This document shows, in pieces, positions 7,519 through 29,317 of a stretch of DNA of 50,645 nt (position 1 is its first letter; every line of letters starts with the position of its first letter). The position numbers and the translations under genes are program-made. A model generated the notes under the pieces. The model ran no database searches and was not told where the DNA came from. It was given only the letters and a program-made list of their open reading frames with translations. The stretch covers positions 1 to 50,645 of the forward strand of contig JAAWDZ010000014.1 of the NCBI GenBank assembly GCA_022794015.1, read 5' to 3'. Source of the stretch: Eubacterium sp. GTDB lineage: Bacteria; Bacillota; Clostridia; Lachnospirales; Lachnospiraceae.

Positions 7519-8562
7519 ATGGCTAGTATTACCTTAGATGGAAGTGGTTTACTCACTTCCACCAGTATTCCTAATATCTTCATAGACAAGTATATGACGA
7601 ATGCAAATGGGGAATTCGTAAAGATTTACCTTTACCTGCTGCGCTGTATGAGCTTAAACCGGCAGGCCTGCACGATTTCCGAACTTGCAGACACTTTTGA
7701 ACATACAGAAAAAGACATCTTACGTGCATTGGCCTACTGGGAGAAAATGCACTTACTGCATCTGGAATATGACGAAAGCCATCAGGTTTCGGGTATCCAG
7801 CTGGAAATTCCAGACAACAGCGCCTCTTCGCAGGATGAGAAGCTTCCTCTGTCCCAACCGCTCCACGCTGCAGCCAGAAAACCTGCAGAATACACCAGGG
7901 AAGAGTTAGACGAATTTCAGAAGGATCAATCTGTGCAGGAAATTTTATTCATCACAGAAAACTACCTTGGCAGAACCTTAAACCCTACGGACATTCAGAT
8001 TATCCTGTATTGGTACGACGGACTTCACTTTCCTGCGGATCTAATCGAATACCTGATCGAAACCTGCATCAGCAACGGACATACAAGCCTGCGCTATATG
8101 GAAAAAATTGCATTTGCATGGGCCGATTCCAACATTCGATCCGTTTCAGAGGCCAAAAAAGAGCACAGCCTGCACCACAAGGATACCTATGCTGTTATGA
8201 AAGCCCTTGGCATCAGCGGGCGCAACCTGATCTCTTCGGAACTTTCCGTCATCCGCAAATGGACAGGCTCTTATGCATTATCCATGGATATCATAAAAGA
8301 AGCCTGCCGCCGCACGATTGCAGCAACCGGCAAGCCCAGCTTTGAATATGCCGATACCATATTAACCAACTGGCACAAAAATAACGTACATACTTTAAAT
8401 GATATCGTAAAATTAGACACGGCGCACCAGAAGTCCCACAAAACAGTCAGGTCCAAAGAAACTGCCGCCCGCCCGGCACAGACAAACCGCTTTAATAACT
8501 TCCCGCAGCGAACCTACAATTACGACCAGTTAGAGAAACAGCTTTTAAACACGACGCATTAA
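7519..8562 (+). CDS. DnaD-domain replication initiation protein
   Basis: This 347-residue protein resembles the DnaD/DnaB-like primosome proteins of Firmicutes. It has an N-terminal winged-helix-like region (about residues 20-110; FVKIYLYLLRC ... SELADTFEHTEKDILRALAYWE). A DnaD domain follows at about 130-205 (TENYLGRTLNPTDIQIILYWYDGLHFPADLIEYLIETC). A second DnaD-like region near 215-300 contains the ILTNWHKNNVHTL stretch. In Firmicutes such proteins act after DnaA to load the replicative helicase. The gene lies 21 bp before the helicase loader gene, which fits a shared operon. Four DnaA boxes lie upstream. The ATG has GAAAGAGGG 8 nt upstream. Confidence 0.9.
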   Translation: MASITLDGSGLLTSTSIPNIFIDKYMTNANGEFVKIYLYLLRCMSLNRQACTISELADTFEHTEKDILRALAYWEKMHLLHLEYDESHQVSGIQLEIPDNSASSQDEKLPLSQPLHAAARKPAEYTREELDEFQKDQSVQEILFITENYLGRTLNPTDIQIILYWYDGLHFPADLIEYLIETCISNGHTSLRYMEKIAFAWADSNIRSVSEAKKEHSLHHKDTYAVMKALGISGRNLISSELSVIRKWTGSYALSMDIIKEACRRTIAATGKPSFEYADTILTNWHKNNVHTLNDIVKLDTAHQKSHKTVRSKETAARPAQTNRFNNFPQRTYNYDQLEKQLLNTTH

Positions 8563-24420: not shown

Positions 24421-26493
24421 ATGAAACTACTGCAGAAACTCTCTGTTTTCCGTATAAATCCAGAGAAAAGAGCCCGGCTTGTGGCATTATTTAATCACTA
24501 TTCGCTTCTGATTCACATGCTGCTGTCTATGGCGCTGTGCTTTACTATTGAAGCGATTTCAAGACACTCCGTCTTAAAAGCGCTCAGTTTTTTTGATGAA
24601 CATACGCTTGCTTTTGCATATAATTCCTTTATTATATTTGCTTCCCTTTCCCTGGTCTATCTGATCCGCAGACGAACCTTTGCGCGTTTTATCATCTGCG
24701 GCTTCTGGCTTTTTCTAGGGACAATCAACGGATGCATTCTTTCCAACCGGGTAACGCCATTTGGATATACCGATTTAAAATGTATCAATGACCTTTTATC
24801 TATGCAGAATACCAATTACTTTACTGCAACGGAAGCTATGCTGGTCGTATTTGTAACGTCGATATTTATTATTTTCTGCACCTATATCTTTTTTAAAGGG
24901 CCGAAATTCCAGGGCGAACGCAAAAAAATTCTGACGCCCTGCCTGGTGGCGCTCTGCTTTCTGATGCTTCCGATTACGACGCAGGCGGCACAGAGCTCTA
25001 ATATTTTAGCCAGCTATTTTGCCAATATTGCGCAGGGATATGAAAATTATGGATTTGTCTATGGCTTTTCCACCAGCGTAGTAGACCGCGGTATGAGTAA
25101 GCCAAAGGATTATTCAGAAGAAACCGTTGCCGATGCACAGAATAAATCAAAGAAAACAGCTACGACAAACCCGGATAATCCGAATATTGTAGTCGTGCTT
25201 TTAGAATCCTTCCTCGATCCGACCGAGGTCAATTACCTGCATTTTTCCGAAGATCCAATTCCCAATTTTCGGAAACTGACGGAAAATTACTCTTCCGGTT
25301 ACCTGACCGTCCCGGTCGTTGGCGCCGGAACTGCCAATACGGAATTCGAAATTCTGACCGGTATGAGCATGCAGTATTTCGGAACAGGGGAATATCCTTA
25401 TAAGACGATTTTAAAACAGACTGACTGCGAGAGTATTGCATCAGACCTTTCCAAAATTGGCTATGGCACACATGTGGTACATAATAACGGCGGAAATTTT
25501 TACAGCCGTGCAAATGCTTTTTCTATGATGGGCTTTGACTCTTTTACCAGCAAAGAGTTGATGGATATCCGCGAATATACGCCGCTTGGTTCCTGGCCAA
25601 CAGATGATATTCTGATTGATGAAACAGTAAAAGCCATGGATGCAACCGAAGGCCAGCCAGATTTTGTATACACAATTACAGTACAGGGACACGGAGATTA
25701 TCCAAAAGAGAAAGTGCTTCCCGCACCGGAAATCCTCGTAAGCGGAGCAAAAGATGAAGCCACTGGTTACCAGTGGGAATATTATGTCAACATGCTTCAT
25801 GAGGTGGACAAATTTATTGCAAATCTGACTGCCGCACTGGAGGAGCGAGGAGAAAATACAATTGTAGTATTTTTTGGGGATCATATTCCAAGTCTTGGAC
25901 TGGAAGAAACGGATCTGGCTTCGGGAAATACATTTCTAACCCAGTATGCTACCTGGAATAATTTTGGCCTTGCAAAGAAAGATGCCGATCTGGCTGCATA
26001 CGAGCTTCTGGCCAGTACGACAGATGCACTTGATATTCATGAAGGTACTATTTTCACCTATGAACAGGCAGCTTTTGAACAGCACCTTCAGGGGACAGAG
26101 AGTTATCTGGAAGGGCTCAACCATCTACAGTACGATTTACTCTACGGTGAGCGATACGCTTACCAGGGAGAGGATCTTTATCCTGCAACCGATCTGGTCA
26201 TGGGAGTAGAAGATACTTCTATTGTAAACATGTGGCCTTCTGCAAGCTCTGATTATGTAACCATCAGCGGAAAGAATTTTACCAAATGGAGCAAAATCTA
26301 TGTCAATGGAGTGAAAGTACCAACGATTTATATTAACAATGCAAGACTTCGCATGAGCGCCCGTGATATTCAGGATGGTGACACGGTTGTGGTTAACCAG
26401 ATGGGATCCGGAAATTCCGTATTCCGGAGTACGCCGGAATTTGTTTATGACGATCCTTATGTAGCAAGCACGGAACAGCAACCTACTGAATAG
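24421..26493 (+). CDS. LTA synthase/sulfatase-family membrane protein
   Basis: The 690 residues begin with about five membrane segments (residues ~25-190), then a large extracellular alkaline-phosphatase/sulfatase-fold domain. Visible motifs are VVLLESF, the nucleophile region GAGTANTEFE with Thr304 in the place of the LtaS catalytic threonine, VQGHGDYP, and the metal-binding VVFFGDHIPSLG. The order matches LtaS-type phosphoglycerol transferases. Residues ~600-680 form an extra beta-rich, IPT/TIG-like tail (DYVTISGKNFTKWSKIYVNG) absent from classical LtaS. The ATG has AAGGAGG 8 nt upstream. Lipoteichoic acid polymerisation or glycerophosphate decoration of a surface glycan is the likely role. 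Confidence 0.88.
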   Translation: MKLLQKLSVFRINPEKRARLVALFNHYSLLIHMLLSMALCFTIEAISRHSVLKALSFFDEHTLAFAYNSFIIFASLSLVYLIRRRTFARFIICGFWLFLGTINGCILSNRVTPFGYTDLKCINDLLSMQNTNYFTATEAMLVVFVTSIFIIFCTYIFFKGPKFQGERKKILTPCLVALCFLMLPITTQAAQSSNILASYFANIAQGYENYGFVYGFSTSVVDRGMSKPKDYSEETVADAQNKSKKTATTNPDNPNIVVVLLESFLDPTEVNYLHFSEDPIPNFRKLTENYSSGYLTVPVVGAGTANTEFEILTGMSMQYFGTGEYPYKTILKQTDCESIASDLSKIGYGTHVVHNNGGNFYSRANAFSMMGFDSFTSKELMDIREYTPLGSWPTDDILIDETVKAMDATEGQPDFVYTITVQGHGDYPKEKVLPAPEILVSGAKDEATGYQWEYYVNMLHEVDKFIANLTAALEERGENTIVVFFGDHIPSLGLEETDLASGNTFLTQYATWNNFGLAKKDADLAAYELLASTTDALDIHEGTIFTYEQAAFEQHLQGTESYLEGLNHLQYDLLYGERYAYQGEDLYPATDLVMGVEDTSIVNMWPSASSDYVTISGKNFTKWSKIYVNGVKVPTIYINNARLRMSARDIQDGDTVVVNQMGSGNSVFRSTPEFVYDDPYVASTEQQPTE

Positions 26494-26494
26494 C

Positions 26495-26529
26495 AAAAAA
26501 ATGCCCTGTTTCTATCCAGGGCATTTTTT
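26495..26529. terminator. Bidirectional terminator after the LTA-synthase-like gene
   Basis: The arms AAAAAATGCCCTG and CAGGGCATTTTTT start immediately after the stop codon, with A- and T-tracts on both sides. It would also stop leftward transcripts coming from the recombinase region. Confidence 0.9.
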
Positions 26530-26565
26530 ACTGCTGCGTTTTAATTTCAGAAAACCGTGCATACT

Positions 26566-26601
26566 AAAAAATGCAACACTTTGTATAAAATGTTGCATTT
26601 T
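26566..26601. repeat. Left inverted repeat (IRL) of the proposed invertible segment
   Basis: The 28-bp block 26571-26598 is, in reverse complement, 26/28 identical to 27309-27336; the perfect part is the 19-mer ATGCAACATTTTATACAAA (minus strand 26598-26580). The block is itself a hairpin with the perfect 11-bp stem AAAATGCAACA/TGTTGCATTTT. On the minus strand a run of six T follows, so in the present orientation it can end leftward transcripts. Confidence 0.8.
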
Positions 26602-26614
26602 CCTTACAACTTAT

Positions 26615-26641
26615 ATTTCGGTAATTTTTTCAAATACTTTA
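26615..26641 (-). promoter_or_regulatory. Sigma-28/sigma-D-like flagellar promoter inside the invertible segment
   Basis: On the minus strand TAAAGTAT (26641-26634), 11 bp, ACCGAAAT (26622-26615). This compares with the enteric sigma-28 consensus TAAAGTTT-N11-GCCGATAA (12 of 16) and the Bacillus sigma-D form TAAA-N15-GCCGATAT (10 of 12). It is just downstream of the recombinase stop and points left into IRL, away from the flagellin gene. No comparable motif was found between the recombinase start and csrA. Inversion between the repeats would aim it at csrA-fliC. Confidence 0.65.
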
Positions 26642-26656
26642 CCCCTAAATTTTATT

Positions 26657-27235
26657 TTATAAATCTATTTCCATAAAAATGGAATCTCGTTCATCCTGAC
26701 ATATCCCAAGATACCGTTTTGTAACAGCAAAAGAAGAGTGATTGAAAATCTCCATCAAAAGAACTGGTGATATTCCCTGTTTCCAGGCATGATAGCCAAA
26801 TGTCTTCCTCAGGGAATGACAACTGATGTGCGTATCGTATACCGTTTCGGAAGCTGCCTTTTTTATAATACGGTACGCCTGAGAACGGCAAATGGGAATA
26901 TCAAAGTTCGCCTTTTTTGAAAATATATAGTTTTCGGGCTTTGGCTTGCATACCAGGCGGTATTGCTCCAAAGCCTCTTTTGCATGTTTATTTAATGCGA
27001 TTACACTCTGTTTTTTTGTCTTTTTCTCCAAAATAATCAAATGCCCTAAAAAACAGTTCCGCTCAAAATCATACACCTCTTTCCATCTCAATTTCAAAAT
27101 ATCACTGATACGCAGCGCCGTGTGCAAACCTAAAACTGTCATTGCATAATTTCTTGGTTCTGGCTGCGTTATCCTGTAATAATCCACAAATTTCTTCAGT
27201 TCTTCTTTATCCCGGATCGGTTGTGTTGTTCCCAT
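26657..27235 (-). CDS. Small tyrosine recombinase, FimB/FimE-type DNA invertase
   Basis: The 192 residues consist almost only of the catalytic domain of tyrosine recombinases. The catalytic set is visible: Arg42 (TALRISDIL), a beta-hairpin Lys in EKKTKK (71-75), His140-x-x-Arg143 (CHSLRKTFGYH), His166 (FNHSS) and the nucleophile Tyr175 (TKRYLGI). The N-terminal core-binding domain of XerC/D or phage integrases is missing, as in FimB, FimE and MrpI (~180-210 residues), which flip promoter-carrying segments. The gene lies between inverted repeats at 26571-26598 and 27309-27336. The ATG at 27235 has AAAGGA 8 nt upstream. A -10-like TATAAA lies in the right repeat reading towards it, so the repeats may affect its own expression. 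Confidence 0.88.
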   Translation of the reverse strand: MGTTQPIRDKEELKKFVDYYRITQPEPRNYAMTVLGLHTALRISDILKLRWKEVYDFERNCFLGHLIILEKKTKKQSVIALNKHAKEALEQYRLVCKPKPENYIFSKKANFDIPICRSQAYRIIKKAASETVYDTHISCHSLRKTFGYHAWKQGISPVLLMEIFNHSSFAVTKRYLGICQDERDSIFMEIDL

Positions 27236-27305
27236 AATAAATCCTTTCTGCTGCTTTCAGGCAGCCTTTTGTTTTTGTCCGGACGTTACAGAACATCTGT
27301 TACGG

Positions 27306-27339
27306 TCCATGCAACATTTTATACAAAATGCTGCATGGA
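27306..27339. repeat. Right inverted repeat (IRR) of the proposed invertible segment
   Basis: Contains ATGCAACATTTTATACAAA (27309-27327), matching the left repeat in inverse orientation. It forms a hairpin (TCCATGCA ... TGCATGGA with inner CATTTT/AAAATG and one A-C mismatch). Outside it lies GATGGG rather than a T-run, so unlike IRL it should not terminate rightward transcripts. It is 29 bp upstream of the csrA start. Between it and the recombinase lies an imperfect GTTACAG ... CTGTTAC element (27285-27303). Confidence 0.8.
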
Positions 27340-27368
27340 TGGGAAATGAATCAAACAAGGAGGTTTTT

Positions 27369-27626
27369 ATGTTAAAGCTGACACTGAAACCCGGTGATTA
27401 TATTGACATTGGCGACGAGGTTAAAGTTGTTTTTTCGGGAGGCAGCGCGAACAACATCCATTTGCTCATAGATGCCCCGAAAAACATGAACATCGCAAGA
27501 AGCAACGCCGGAAAAACAAAAACCGCTTCTCCATATTACCGGGAAAAAGAAATTTCCGCAGAGGCAAGGAAAGAAATTACGGCCATTTTAATGCGAGAAA
27601 AAAGAAAACAGGCAGGCACAGGATAA
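27369..27626 (+). CDS. csrA: Carbon storage regulator CsrA
   Basis: The 85 residues match CsrA: MLKLTLKPGDYIDIGDEVKVVF corresponds to the first strands with the GDxIxIGDEI-type motif. IHLLIDAPKNMNIAR carries the APK and Arg of the RNA-binding face. A ~35-residue Lys/Arg-rich tail extends beyond the usual ~70 residues. CsrA binds GGA motifs in mRNA leaders; in Bacillus it represses translation of the flagellin hag and is antagonised by FliW. I chose the ATG at 27369 because AAGGAGG lies 6 nt upstream; an ATG at 27309 falls inside the right inverted repeat. It is immediately upstream of the flagellin gene. No fliW is seen in the window. Confidence 0.88.
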   Translation: MLKLTLKPGDYIDIGDEVKVVFSGGSANNIHLLIDAPKNMNIARSNAGKTKTASPYYREKEISAEARKEITAILMREKRKQAGTG

Positions 27627-27630
27627 TAAT

Positions 27631-27645
27631 ACCGGAATATCCGGT
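27631..27645. repeat. Perfect palindrome between csrA and flagellin
   Basis: ACCGGA-ATA-TCCGGT, 4 bp after the csrA stop. A T/A-rich stretch follows, so it may be a weak terminator or attenuator. The 5' arm contains a GGA. Confidence 0.45.
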
Positions 27646-27666
27646 TTATTATAAAAACTTTTCACA

Positions 27667-27701
27667 GGGAAAGGATTCCCAAAAATCAAATCACACGGAG
27701 G
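27667..27701 (+). promoter_or_regulatory. Flagellin leader with two candidate CsrA sites
   Basis: Hairpin GGGAA-AGGA-TTCCC (27667-27680) shows a GGA in its loop, the preferred presentation for CsrA. Twenty-four nt further, ACACGGAGG (27693-27701) carries the second GGA within the flagellin Shine-Dalgarno sequence. This two-site layout parallels the Bacillus hag leader. Confidence 0.6.
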
Positions 27702-27709
27702 TAAATATT

Positions 27710-29317
27710 ATGGTAGTACAACACAACATGCAGGCAATGAACGCGAGCAGGATGCTCGGCATCACAACGGGAAACCAGTCAAAGGCAACGGAGAAATTAT
27801 CTTCCGGTTACCGCATTAACCGCGCGGCAGACGATGCAGCCGGACTTACGATTTCCGAAAAAATGAGAAAACAGGTGCGTGGCTTGACACAGGCTTCCAC
27901 AAATGCACAGGACGGCATTTCCTGCGTACAAACAGCGGAAGGCGCATTAACAGAAGTACATTCGATGCTGCAGCGTATGAATGAACTGTCTGTCCAGGCT
28001 TCAAACGGAACCATGTCAAAAGACGACAGGCAGGCTGTCCAGGACGAAATCGATCAGCTGGTAACTGAAATTGACCGCGTATCCGAAACAACCAAATTCA
28101 ATGAAATTTATCTGCTGAAAGGAGATCCCAAAACACAGCAGAAAACAACAACTTCAACTTATGAGTTTGAACTGACAGCTGCCGCTAAGGCTGCGGAAAA
28201 AGGCGAAATTTCTGTTATTGCAGGCCAAAACGCCTACGGCGCTGGCAAGACGACTGCGGTTACGGCAGATACTGCGGCAGCGGCTGCTTCTATGGAGCTT
28301 AATACGACGGCGCTTGGAACAAATAAACTGTTTGTAAGCCCTACTGGCGGTGGTACAGCCGCAACAGATCATGTAGAAGTAACAGCAGCCGACTTAGCTA
28401 CTTATTTTGACGTAGACGCAGCCGGAAACGTAACTGCAAAAGCAGGCCTGACATTCGTAACAGCAGCAAACGCCACGCTAGCAAATGCAGGCGGAGGTAC
28501 TACCTCTACCGGTATTGACTCAGTTATAGGAAAACCTGCCACAGCCGCTGCAACCGGAGATTTATCCGAATATGTAGAATTAGACGAAAACGGCAAGTTC
28601 AAATACAAAGACGGCAAAATGCTCTATACTGCCGCTGCAGACGCTGTCGACCAGTACGGAGACCAGATAGAAGCGACCGCCATTGCGGAAGCAGATTTGG
28701 ATCAGTATTTTAAATCCTCGGCAAATCCATTGGTAGATAATAATGGCGATAAAATTACGGATTTCTCCCAGTATTTTGAAAACGGCGCTTACAAGGGCGG
28801 TATTTTCAGAAACGACGATAACGGCAACCGCACAGAAATCGGTGCGGAACAAATCAAGGACTACATTACGGTAAAGGGCAATACCATAACCTCTACAACA
28901 GCGGAAGCATTGGAATTTAACCTTCACGTAGGATCGGAATCTTTAGAAGACAACAAGATCGGCATAAAGATTGAAGCTATGTCCGCAAACGGCATTGGCG
29001 TAGATGTCCTGCGCAACACGGGACTTATGACAGAAGCAGACGCTACCAAAGCAATCGACACGATTGCAGAAGCCATTTCCAAGGTTTCCAAACAGCGTTC
29101 CGCATTAGGTGCAGTCCAGAACCGCTTAGAGCACACAATCGCGAACTTAGACAACGTTGTGGAGAATACAACCGCAGCAGAATCCCGCATCCGCGATACG
29201 GATATGGCAGCTATGATGGTGGAATACTCCAAAAACAATATTTTGGCACAGGCAGGTCAGTCTATGCTGGCACAGGCCAACCAGTCCACACAGGGTGTAC
29301 TTTCCTTACTGCAATAA
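27710..29317 (+). CDS. fliC: Flagellin
   Basis: The 535 residues show the conserved flagellin N-domain (about 1-140: MVVQHNMQAMNASRMLG, ATEKLSSGYRINRAADDAAGL, LQRMNELSVQASNGT). A variable, Ala/Thr/Asp-rich central region occupies ~145-430. The conserved C-domain covers ~435-535 (RSALGAVQNRLEHTIANLDNVVENTTAAESRIRDTDMA, ending QSTQGVLSLLQ). It is the main filament subunit, exported through the flagellar secretion apparatus. No promoter is evident directly in front of it, so transcription probably comes from upstream of csrA. The ATG has GGAGG 8 nt upstream. The TLR5-contact segment reads QRMNELSV where Salmonella has QRVRELAV, so the contact Arg is replaced by Asn. Confidence 0.96.
   Translation: MVVQHNMQAMNASRMLGITTGNQSKATEKLSSGYRINRAADDAAGLTISEKMRKQVRGLTQASTNAQDGISCVQTAEGALTEVHSMLQRMNELSVQASNGTMSKDDRQAVQDEIDQLVTEIDRVSETTKFNEIYLLKGDPKTQQKTTTSTYEFELTAAAKAAEKGEISVIAGQNAYGAGKTTAVTADTAAAAASMELNTTALGTNKLFVSPTGGGTAATDHVEVTAADLATYFDVDAAGNVTAKAGLTFVTAANATLANAGGGTTSTGIDSVIGKPATAAATGDLSEYVELDENGKFKYKDGKMLYTAAADAVDQYGDQIEATAIAEADLDQYFKSSANPLVDNNGDKITDFSQYFENGAYKGGIFRNDDNGNRTEIGAEQIKDYITVKGNTITSTTAEALEFNLHVGSESLEDNKIGIKIEAMSANGIGVDVLRNTGLMTEADATKAIDTIAEAISKVSKQRSALGAVQNRLEHTIANLDNVVENTTAAESRIRDTDMAAMMVEYSKNNILAQAGQSMLAQANQSTQGVLSLLQ

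Follow-up and report, generated by a model that had tools for sequence, protein, structure and literature searches.

We identified, in a 50,645-nucleotide (nt) contig of a Eubacterium species of the Lachnospiraceae (JAAWDZ010000014.1, assembly GCA_022794015.1; this whole stretch is called the window), genes for a tyrosine recombinase, a CsrA-domain protein and a flagellin that, on the basis of sequence comparison, very probably make up a self-contained promoter-inversion switch for an alternative flagellin. We predict that the recombinase encoded in the segment, a putative invertase, joins two inverted sites and flips the ~710-bp segment between them. In the OFF orientation, a sigma-28 promoter would fire leftward into the site distal to the csrA-like gene, where a hairpin and a T-tract probably end the transcript after ~50 nt. 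In the ON orientation, the same promoter would read across the proximal site, whose hairpin is weaker and lacks a T-tract, into the genes for the CsrA-domain protein and the flagellin. Through GGA-loop hairpins in the leaders, this CsrA-domain protein probably adjusts how its own flagellin mRNA, and perhaps that of the housekeeping flagellin, is translated. Comparison among relatives establishes the site pairs, the conserved promoter, the presence of both orientations and the confinement of the inversion by the sites; the part of this recombinase in the flip, promoter and terminator activity, binding of the hairpins by CsrA and ongoing switching in the window organism are what we infer.

A preliminary description of the window had staked the inverton reading on relatives that carry the inverted form, and we identified this form in two of them (L063 and L191), with an inversion bounded by the repeats. 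One genome (G491) has duplicate modules, one ON (L191) and one OFF (L190). The csrA regions of the pair align in direct order (395/397 identical), as do the next 2 kb downstream (1801/1982 identical), and the segment between the sites is 884/925 (96%) identical in inverted order and not alignable in direct order. On the distal side, ~20 bases before the site match and the 600 nt distal flank fails to align. The spacers differ between the two modules (GGAT and GGGT) but match within each; thus each module keeps its own matching pair. The other comparison is between L063 (ON) and L075 (OFF), which come from sister species on the tree (support 100/92). Here the csrA-flagellin side aligns directly (625/867) and the segment aligns only when inverted (481/655), with little in common between the distal flanks beyond the last bases before the site. 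As read from these alignments, the segment is reversed relative to csrA-flagellin in both ON relatives, and both orientations exist among relatives (between sister species and within one genome), the window species being represented by one assembly.

We scanned 84,980 species genomes, which gave at least 575 related stretches (the best 80 were kept), and made two overlapping searches of genomes of the family. Matches were found in 30 of 397 genomes (E up to 1e-45) and in 31 of 386 (E up to 1e-60), and 6 of the 15 genomes of the window's genus match at 1e-60. From 110 loci examined we removed 7 duplicates and 23 with neither csrA nor flagellin in reach, leaving 80 distinct modules. A site pair was identified in 69 of these; L135, which has two divergent flagellins, was set aside and 68 were counted. 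The architecture of recombinase, promoter, csrA and flagellin recurs across the Lachnospiraceae. The window had been described as caught in the OFF orientation: the orientation is confirmed, but it is no lucky snapshot, as OFF is the state of 67 of the 68 modules, with one ON (L063). Newly fetched loci, counted among distinct recombinases with a site pair, added 11 OFF modules (L175, L176, L179, L180, L183, L188, two in L189, L203, L204 and the second in L119) and one ON (L191). The remaining newly fetched loci were duplicates, lacked cargo within reach or were not readable (L187, L193, L199), and are uncounted. The collections hold one genome per species, and most relatives are metagenome assemblies, which are prone to reporting the majority orientation.

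Several loci were reassigned or left out of these counts. L052 and L053, in which the recombinase points toward csrA, were first taken as ON; from the promoter direction they are OFF with a reversed recombinase, and they form a separate clade. L106 was called ON by script, and is uncounted as its csrA match and second site were not found. Also uncounted are L093, L150 and L154, labelled ON from promoter matches without a site pair; inspection of L093 gave two sites ~2.3 kb apart and an outward promoter, i.e., OFF. L211 reads OFF with a reversed recombinase and was left out. Both L210 (MT837633.1) and L211 (MT837916.1) are human faecal contigs deposited as 'Bacteriophage sp.', and are probably mislabelled chromosome pieces because they hold parts of the bacterial module. 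L097, L062 and possibly L092 depart from the usual layout in that the recombinase lies outside what appears to be the invertible segment. At L135 (CANRMK010000033.1, 4348-6312), a segment with recombinase and promoter separates two divergent flagellin genes whose starts and leaders are nearly identical; this looks like a switch alternating between the two flagellins.

The site spacers also point to inversion. Across the 67 OFF modules they have a mean of 0.33 mismatches in inverted order and 4.51 in direct order (inverted better in 66, equal in 1), and this agreement fits inversion because strand exchange for inversion requires it. Contig ends fall within 250 nt outside a site in 5 cases, against 0.98 expected (Poisson P 0.003; taken over the 59 of the 68 modules that stem from the species-genome scan). 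We take this excess as weak support for mixed populations, since all 5 fall at the distal site and the contigs are very uneven in size. At another locus, L133 (JAAWEL010000089.1), the contig start (1-137) repeats the other outer flank and site (915-1051) exactly but inverted, an arrangement that assembly of reads with mixed orientations could produce. L133 is uncounted, as neither csrA nor flagellin was found nearby.

The two 28-nt sites of the window are complementary at 26/28 positions (93%), with 710 nt between the arms, and have 19 consecutive identical positions. The repeat scores 22, against a best of 15 among 300 dinucleotide shuffles, and no second copy was found in the rest of the assembly with up to 3 mismatches allowed. 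Each site is an imperfect palindrome with an asymmetric centre (TTTGTATAAAA) and has, to judge from its sequence, the shape of a tyrosine-recombinase core site; the spacer and inner arms are identical between the two. Besides the recombinase, no open reading frame of at least 80 residues (aa) lies between the sites. Our repeat search and the sequence bear out what had been claimed of this pair, namely 26 of 28 matching positions with a perfect 19-bp run, a better inverted than direct alignment (2 versus 4 mismatches), and csrA and flagellin just outside the right repeat (csrA starts 32 nt past the proximal site). The locus has the makeup of an inverton: a promoter and a site-specific recombinase enclosed by a pair of inverted sites.

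Promoters were called by our own scoring against the Bacillus subtilis sigma-28 consensus, and the sigma-28-like promoter previously noted as facing the wrong way inside the segment was recovered on the minus strand (26614-26641). An outward-facing element of this type lies within 75 nt inside the distal site in 66/67 OFF modules (0.9 expected from shuffles), and its -10 element is 16-19 nt from the site in 52/67. No csrA-facing element was found within 75 nt inside the proximal site (0/67 OFF modules; 0.2 expected), and a simple scan gave no forward-strand sigma-70 match in window positions 26400-27800. In a clade of 8 recombinases (support 100/98), the recombinase is reversed relative to the promoter and the promoter is still beside the distal site. 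Thus, the promoter, and not transcription of the recombinase itself, is the conserved output, with the direction of the recombinase free.

The distal site looks like an OFF-state terminator, a reading that is new here and draws on its palindrome and outward T-tract; the csrA-side site is usually without a T-tract. A TTTT run occurs within 10 nt outside the distal site in 53/67 modules and outside the proximal site in 5/67. Palindrome mismatches in the outer arms come to 0.46 at the distal site versus 1.55 at the proximal site (distal fewer in 44/67, more in 4/67), and to 1 at each site in the window. The mean predicted hairpin energy is -11.3 kcal/mol at the OFF junction versus -7.8 kcal/mol in silico for ON (stabler OFF in 53/67, ON in 4/67), and the window values are -11.9 and -7.6 kcal/mol. 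Given these figures, the OFF/ON difference seems to reside in the outer arms and flanks, which stay in place, and not in the segment that moves.

The recombinase matches Pfam Phage_integrase over residues 10-176 of 192 (92.3 bits, gathering score 27.1). This is its sole Pfam match, and it is not a serine recombinase as in the Hin switch. An alignment of the window recombinase with 28 relatives (29 sequences in all) shows no variation at R42, K72, H140, R143, H166 or Y175. Domain and R-K-H-R-H-Y residues place the enzyme in the tyrosine recombinase superfamily, and Pfam and the alignment agree with its first assignment as a catalytic-domain-only enzyme with R42, H140, R143, H166 and Y175. FimB/FimE/MrpI-type invertases are enzymes of ~200 aa. 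A PDB search returned two weak matches, the best to a XerC-like recombinase (4a8e, E 5e-5). A 49% identical recombinase is encoded in a Spirochaetaceae metagenome-assembled genome (L104, CACZPR010000007.1), with no csrA or flagellin match found in reach. At L041 (G000:C70, 6430-8380), a paralogous recombinase (49%) lies by long inverted repeats (119 and 77 nt) in a shufflon-like arrangement, and a further 27-nt inverted repeat (8202-8228 / 8353-8379) is just upstream of a 702-aa Big_2 protein. A third recombinase paralogue, at L042 (G000:C79, 7632-8454), is accompanied by an inverted repeat (8248-8297 / 8405-8454), and downstream of this repeat is a 393-aa open reading frame without a Pfam match.

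Some observations weigh against a promoter-inversion switch. Few modules are ON (2 of the 80 for which both site pair and promoter were resolved, i.e., 68 + 12, L135 excluded), the automatic search gave no site pair in 11 of the 80 cargo modules, and the window assembly contains a single orientation of the segment. L190 and L191 come from a metagenome-assembled genome, and proof from the flanks comes chiefly from the csrA side, as in neither ON/OFF comparison do the distal flanks align beyond the last bases before the site. The recombinase scores far under the NCBIfam cut-offs for tyrosine-type DNA invertases (PRK09870, 34.6 bits of 221; PRK09871, 39.7 of 222) and by these models is outside the named subfamilies of the FimB/FimE kind. 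As for termination, a simple terminator scan did not flag the window distal site, the distal site is AU-rich, and T's make up 5.1 of 8 positions on its inner side, which means that it may equally stop transcription from upstream.

The rarity of ON forms (67 of the 68 first-set modules are OFF), together with the single orientation in the assembly and the 2 mismatches between the window sites, could instead indicate a decayed or locked switch, one that inverted once and whose window copy is now fixed OFF with a silent flagellin. We consider this unlikely. The window recombinase is open with all of its catalytic residues, the spacer and inner arms of the sites are identical, csrA and flagellin are open, and OFF is usual even in the genome with a documented flip (G491). 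The conservation of promoter, distance and T-tract in the OFF orientation would also suit an output consisting of the OFF-state sigma-28 transcript (a short RNA from the promoter to the distal site) or of recombinase expression, with csrA-flagellin driven elsewhere. This is very improbable, as OFF modules have no csrA-facing sigma-28 element within 75 nt inside the proximal site (0/67), the sigma-70 scan gave no forward match around the segment, csrA begins 32 nt past the proximal site, and ON forms place the promoter onto csrA. Lastly, related recombinases (~39-43% identical, among the annotated matches listed) are labelled integrases on plasmids and phages and the site is hairpin-like with a T-tract, but an integrase of a small mobile island, with repeats that are att-like or a terminator rather than bounds of an invertible promoter, is scarcely credible when no other open reading frame of at least 80 aa lies between the sites, spacers agree better inverted in 66/67 modules, natural inversions stop at the sites and a sigma-28 element is within 75 nt of the distal site in 66/67.

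Table 1. Features of the predicted promoter-inversion switch, in window coordinates
Feature	Position	Strand	Remark
Outward T-tract (leftward reading) adjoining the distal site; with the site hairpin, candidate intrinsic terminator of the OFF sigma-28 transcript	26566..26570	-	
Distal recombination site, imperfect palindrome, left inverted repeat	26571..26598	.	
Invertible segment, 710 bp, OFF orientation here	26599..27308	.	orientation via comparison with L063 and L191
Sigma-28 (SigD)-type promoter TAAAGTAT-N12-CCGAAATA, faces away from csrA	26614..26641	-	15 nt inside left repeat
Tyrosine recombinase, 192 aa, catalytic domain only, presumed invertase	26657..27235	-	Pfam Phage_integrase
Proximal (csrA-side) recombination site; 1 palindrome mismatch as in distal site; no T-tract outside	27309..27336	.	
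CsrA-domain protein, 85 aa, divergent paralogue, first cargo gene	27369..27626	+	Pfam CsrA
Hairpin GGGAA-AGGA-TTCCC in flagellin leader, CsrA-site-like	27667..27680	+	
Alternative flagellin, 535 aa, second cargo gene	27710..29317	+	both terminal domains present

The first cargo gene of the predicted switch was originally called csrA. Its product has the Pfam CsrA domain (58.4 bits, gathering 27), but is well under the NCBIfam cut-offs for CsrA itself (TIGR00202, 26.1 of 70.1 bits; NF002469, 29.5 of 73 bits); judged by these scores it is a divergent CsrA-domain paralogue. With a CsrA model, the other csrA of the genome (on contig C34) scores 88.3 bits versus 58.1 for the switch csrA. We aligned 70 of 72 cargo csrA-like proteins (2 were dropped by length): M1, R44 and G24 are present in 70/70 and G25 in 68/70 (the canonical paralogue has E and I at 24 and 25), and residue 6 is V, L or I in 68/70 (R in the canonical paralogue). 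GGA-loop hairpins of at least 5 bp occur in 61/67 flagellin leaders (one of the 68 leaders was dropped as over-long) versus 12.4 in mononucleotide shuffles, and probably reflect translational control, as predicted from sequence, by the co-encoded CsrA-like protein. No Rfam match was found in the window.

The assembly that contains the window (as contig C33) comprises 2.78 Mb in 81 contigs, is 86% complete and has 6 Flagellin_N matches. One of these, a 518-aa protein on C34, is presumably not a filament flagellin but FlgL, a junction protein, given its length and place. Another flagellin on C34 is in a locus with fliW, the second csrA, flaG and fliS, and has its own sigma-28 element ~150 nt upstream and a leader hairpin (GCAGCATGGATGCTGC). 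The switch flagellin (535 aa) is 69% identical to it over the first 138 residues, and is therefore an additional flagellin. G491 has 11 Flagellin_N matches and seven recombinase copies. Six of its modules are readable, five OFF (L188, three in L189, and L190) and one ON (L191), and the seventh copy (L192) is cut by a contig end; exactly one ON is the count in this one genome and need not be a rule. At L189 (G491:C9:118500-136500), three recombinase-csrA-flagellin modules stand in tandem over less than 13 kb, and each has its own sites. Several modules per genome are also present in G589 (three) and G004 (two).

Among immune antigens in the mammalian gut, the flagellins of the Lachnospiraceae are prominent. 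We tentatively suggest, as a possibility on the doubtful side, that flagellin antigenic variation is widespread in this family. Each genome would have one to several autonomous modules, mostly OFF. Each module would combine a recombinase, locus-matched sites and a CsrA paralogue of its own with a sigma-28 promoter, a site that also serves as the OFF terminator, and a flagellin distinct from the others. A rare flip would add or substitute one flagellin, and the co-expressed CsrA paralogue would set which flagellin mRNA is translated. If this is true, a widespread, mostly-OFF DNA switch would explain how commensals keep unexpressed flagellins in reserve, and segment orientation in metagenomic reads would be a directly testable marker of spare-flagellin use. 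It would also be a case where a recombination site may double as an OFF-state terminator. Such a switch is undescribed in the titles and abstract openings among the matches listed from an open-licence library, a scope that takes in few subscription papers. In its main text, a paper on Eubacterium and Roseburia flagellin loci (PMC3720852) does not mention recombinase, integrase or phase variation, and a term search of the main text of PMC11892184 gave no mention of flagella or Lachnospiraceae.

Several known systems share parts of this arrangement. In Bacillus subtilis, CsrA and FliW have roles in CsrA-FliW-Hag homeostasis. Our locus likewise has a CsrA-domain protein beside a flagellin with a GGA leader hairpin, in a genome that encodes FliW, but its cargo is a second, divergent CsrA (R44 kept in 70/70, R6 replaced) under a DNA switch. 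FimB, FimE and MrpI are also catalytic-domain tyrosine recombinases that flip promoters; the cargo here is csrA-flagellin, not fimbriae. The Clostridioides difficile RecV flagellar switch is another inversion by a tyrosine recombinase beside flagellar genes in Clostridia, according to passages of PMC7446863, whereas the segments here are 0.65-1.7 kb with their own recombinase and sigma-28 promoter inside.

The preliminary description knew of no inverton with the recombinase inside and csrA-fliC as cargo. An inside recombinase and a flagellin cargo are not unprecedented, however, because Salmonella Hin/fljBA has both: in the accounts within PMC9368917 and PMC2784873, the recombinase gene and promoter are inside the invertible segment and the flagellin operon is outside, a regulator gene travels with the flagellin, and another flagellin is elsewhere. 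Hin differs from the tyrosine recombinase here in being a serine recombinase and in having a Fis-bound enhancer (PMC3798978). Salmonella FljA represses fliC, whereas a CsrA-domain protein, a putative regulator, precedes the flagellin here; OFF predominates here, and several modules can share one genome. The locus looks like a tyrosine-recombinase counterpart of Hin/fljBA in which a CsrA paralogue stands in for the regulator that travels with the flagellin. C. difficile cwpV resembles it in OFF predominance (genomic DNA 96% OFF in strain 630) and in an orientation-dependent intrinsic terminator, the hypothesis of the cwpV authors (passages of PMC2784873). The cwpV promoter is outside the segment, recV is unlinked and the terminator is at the OFF junction upstream of the gene, whereas here both promoter and recombinase are inside and the candidate terminator is at the distal site. 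By analogy, the locus is closest to Hin/fljBA in function, to RecV and the Fim-type switches in enzyme class, and to cwpV in OFF predominance and orientation-dependent termination.
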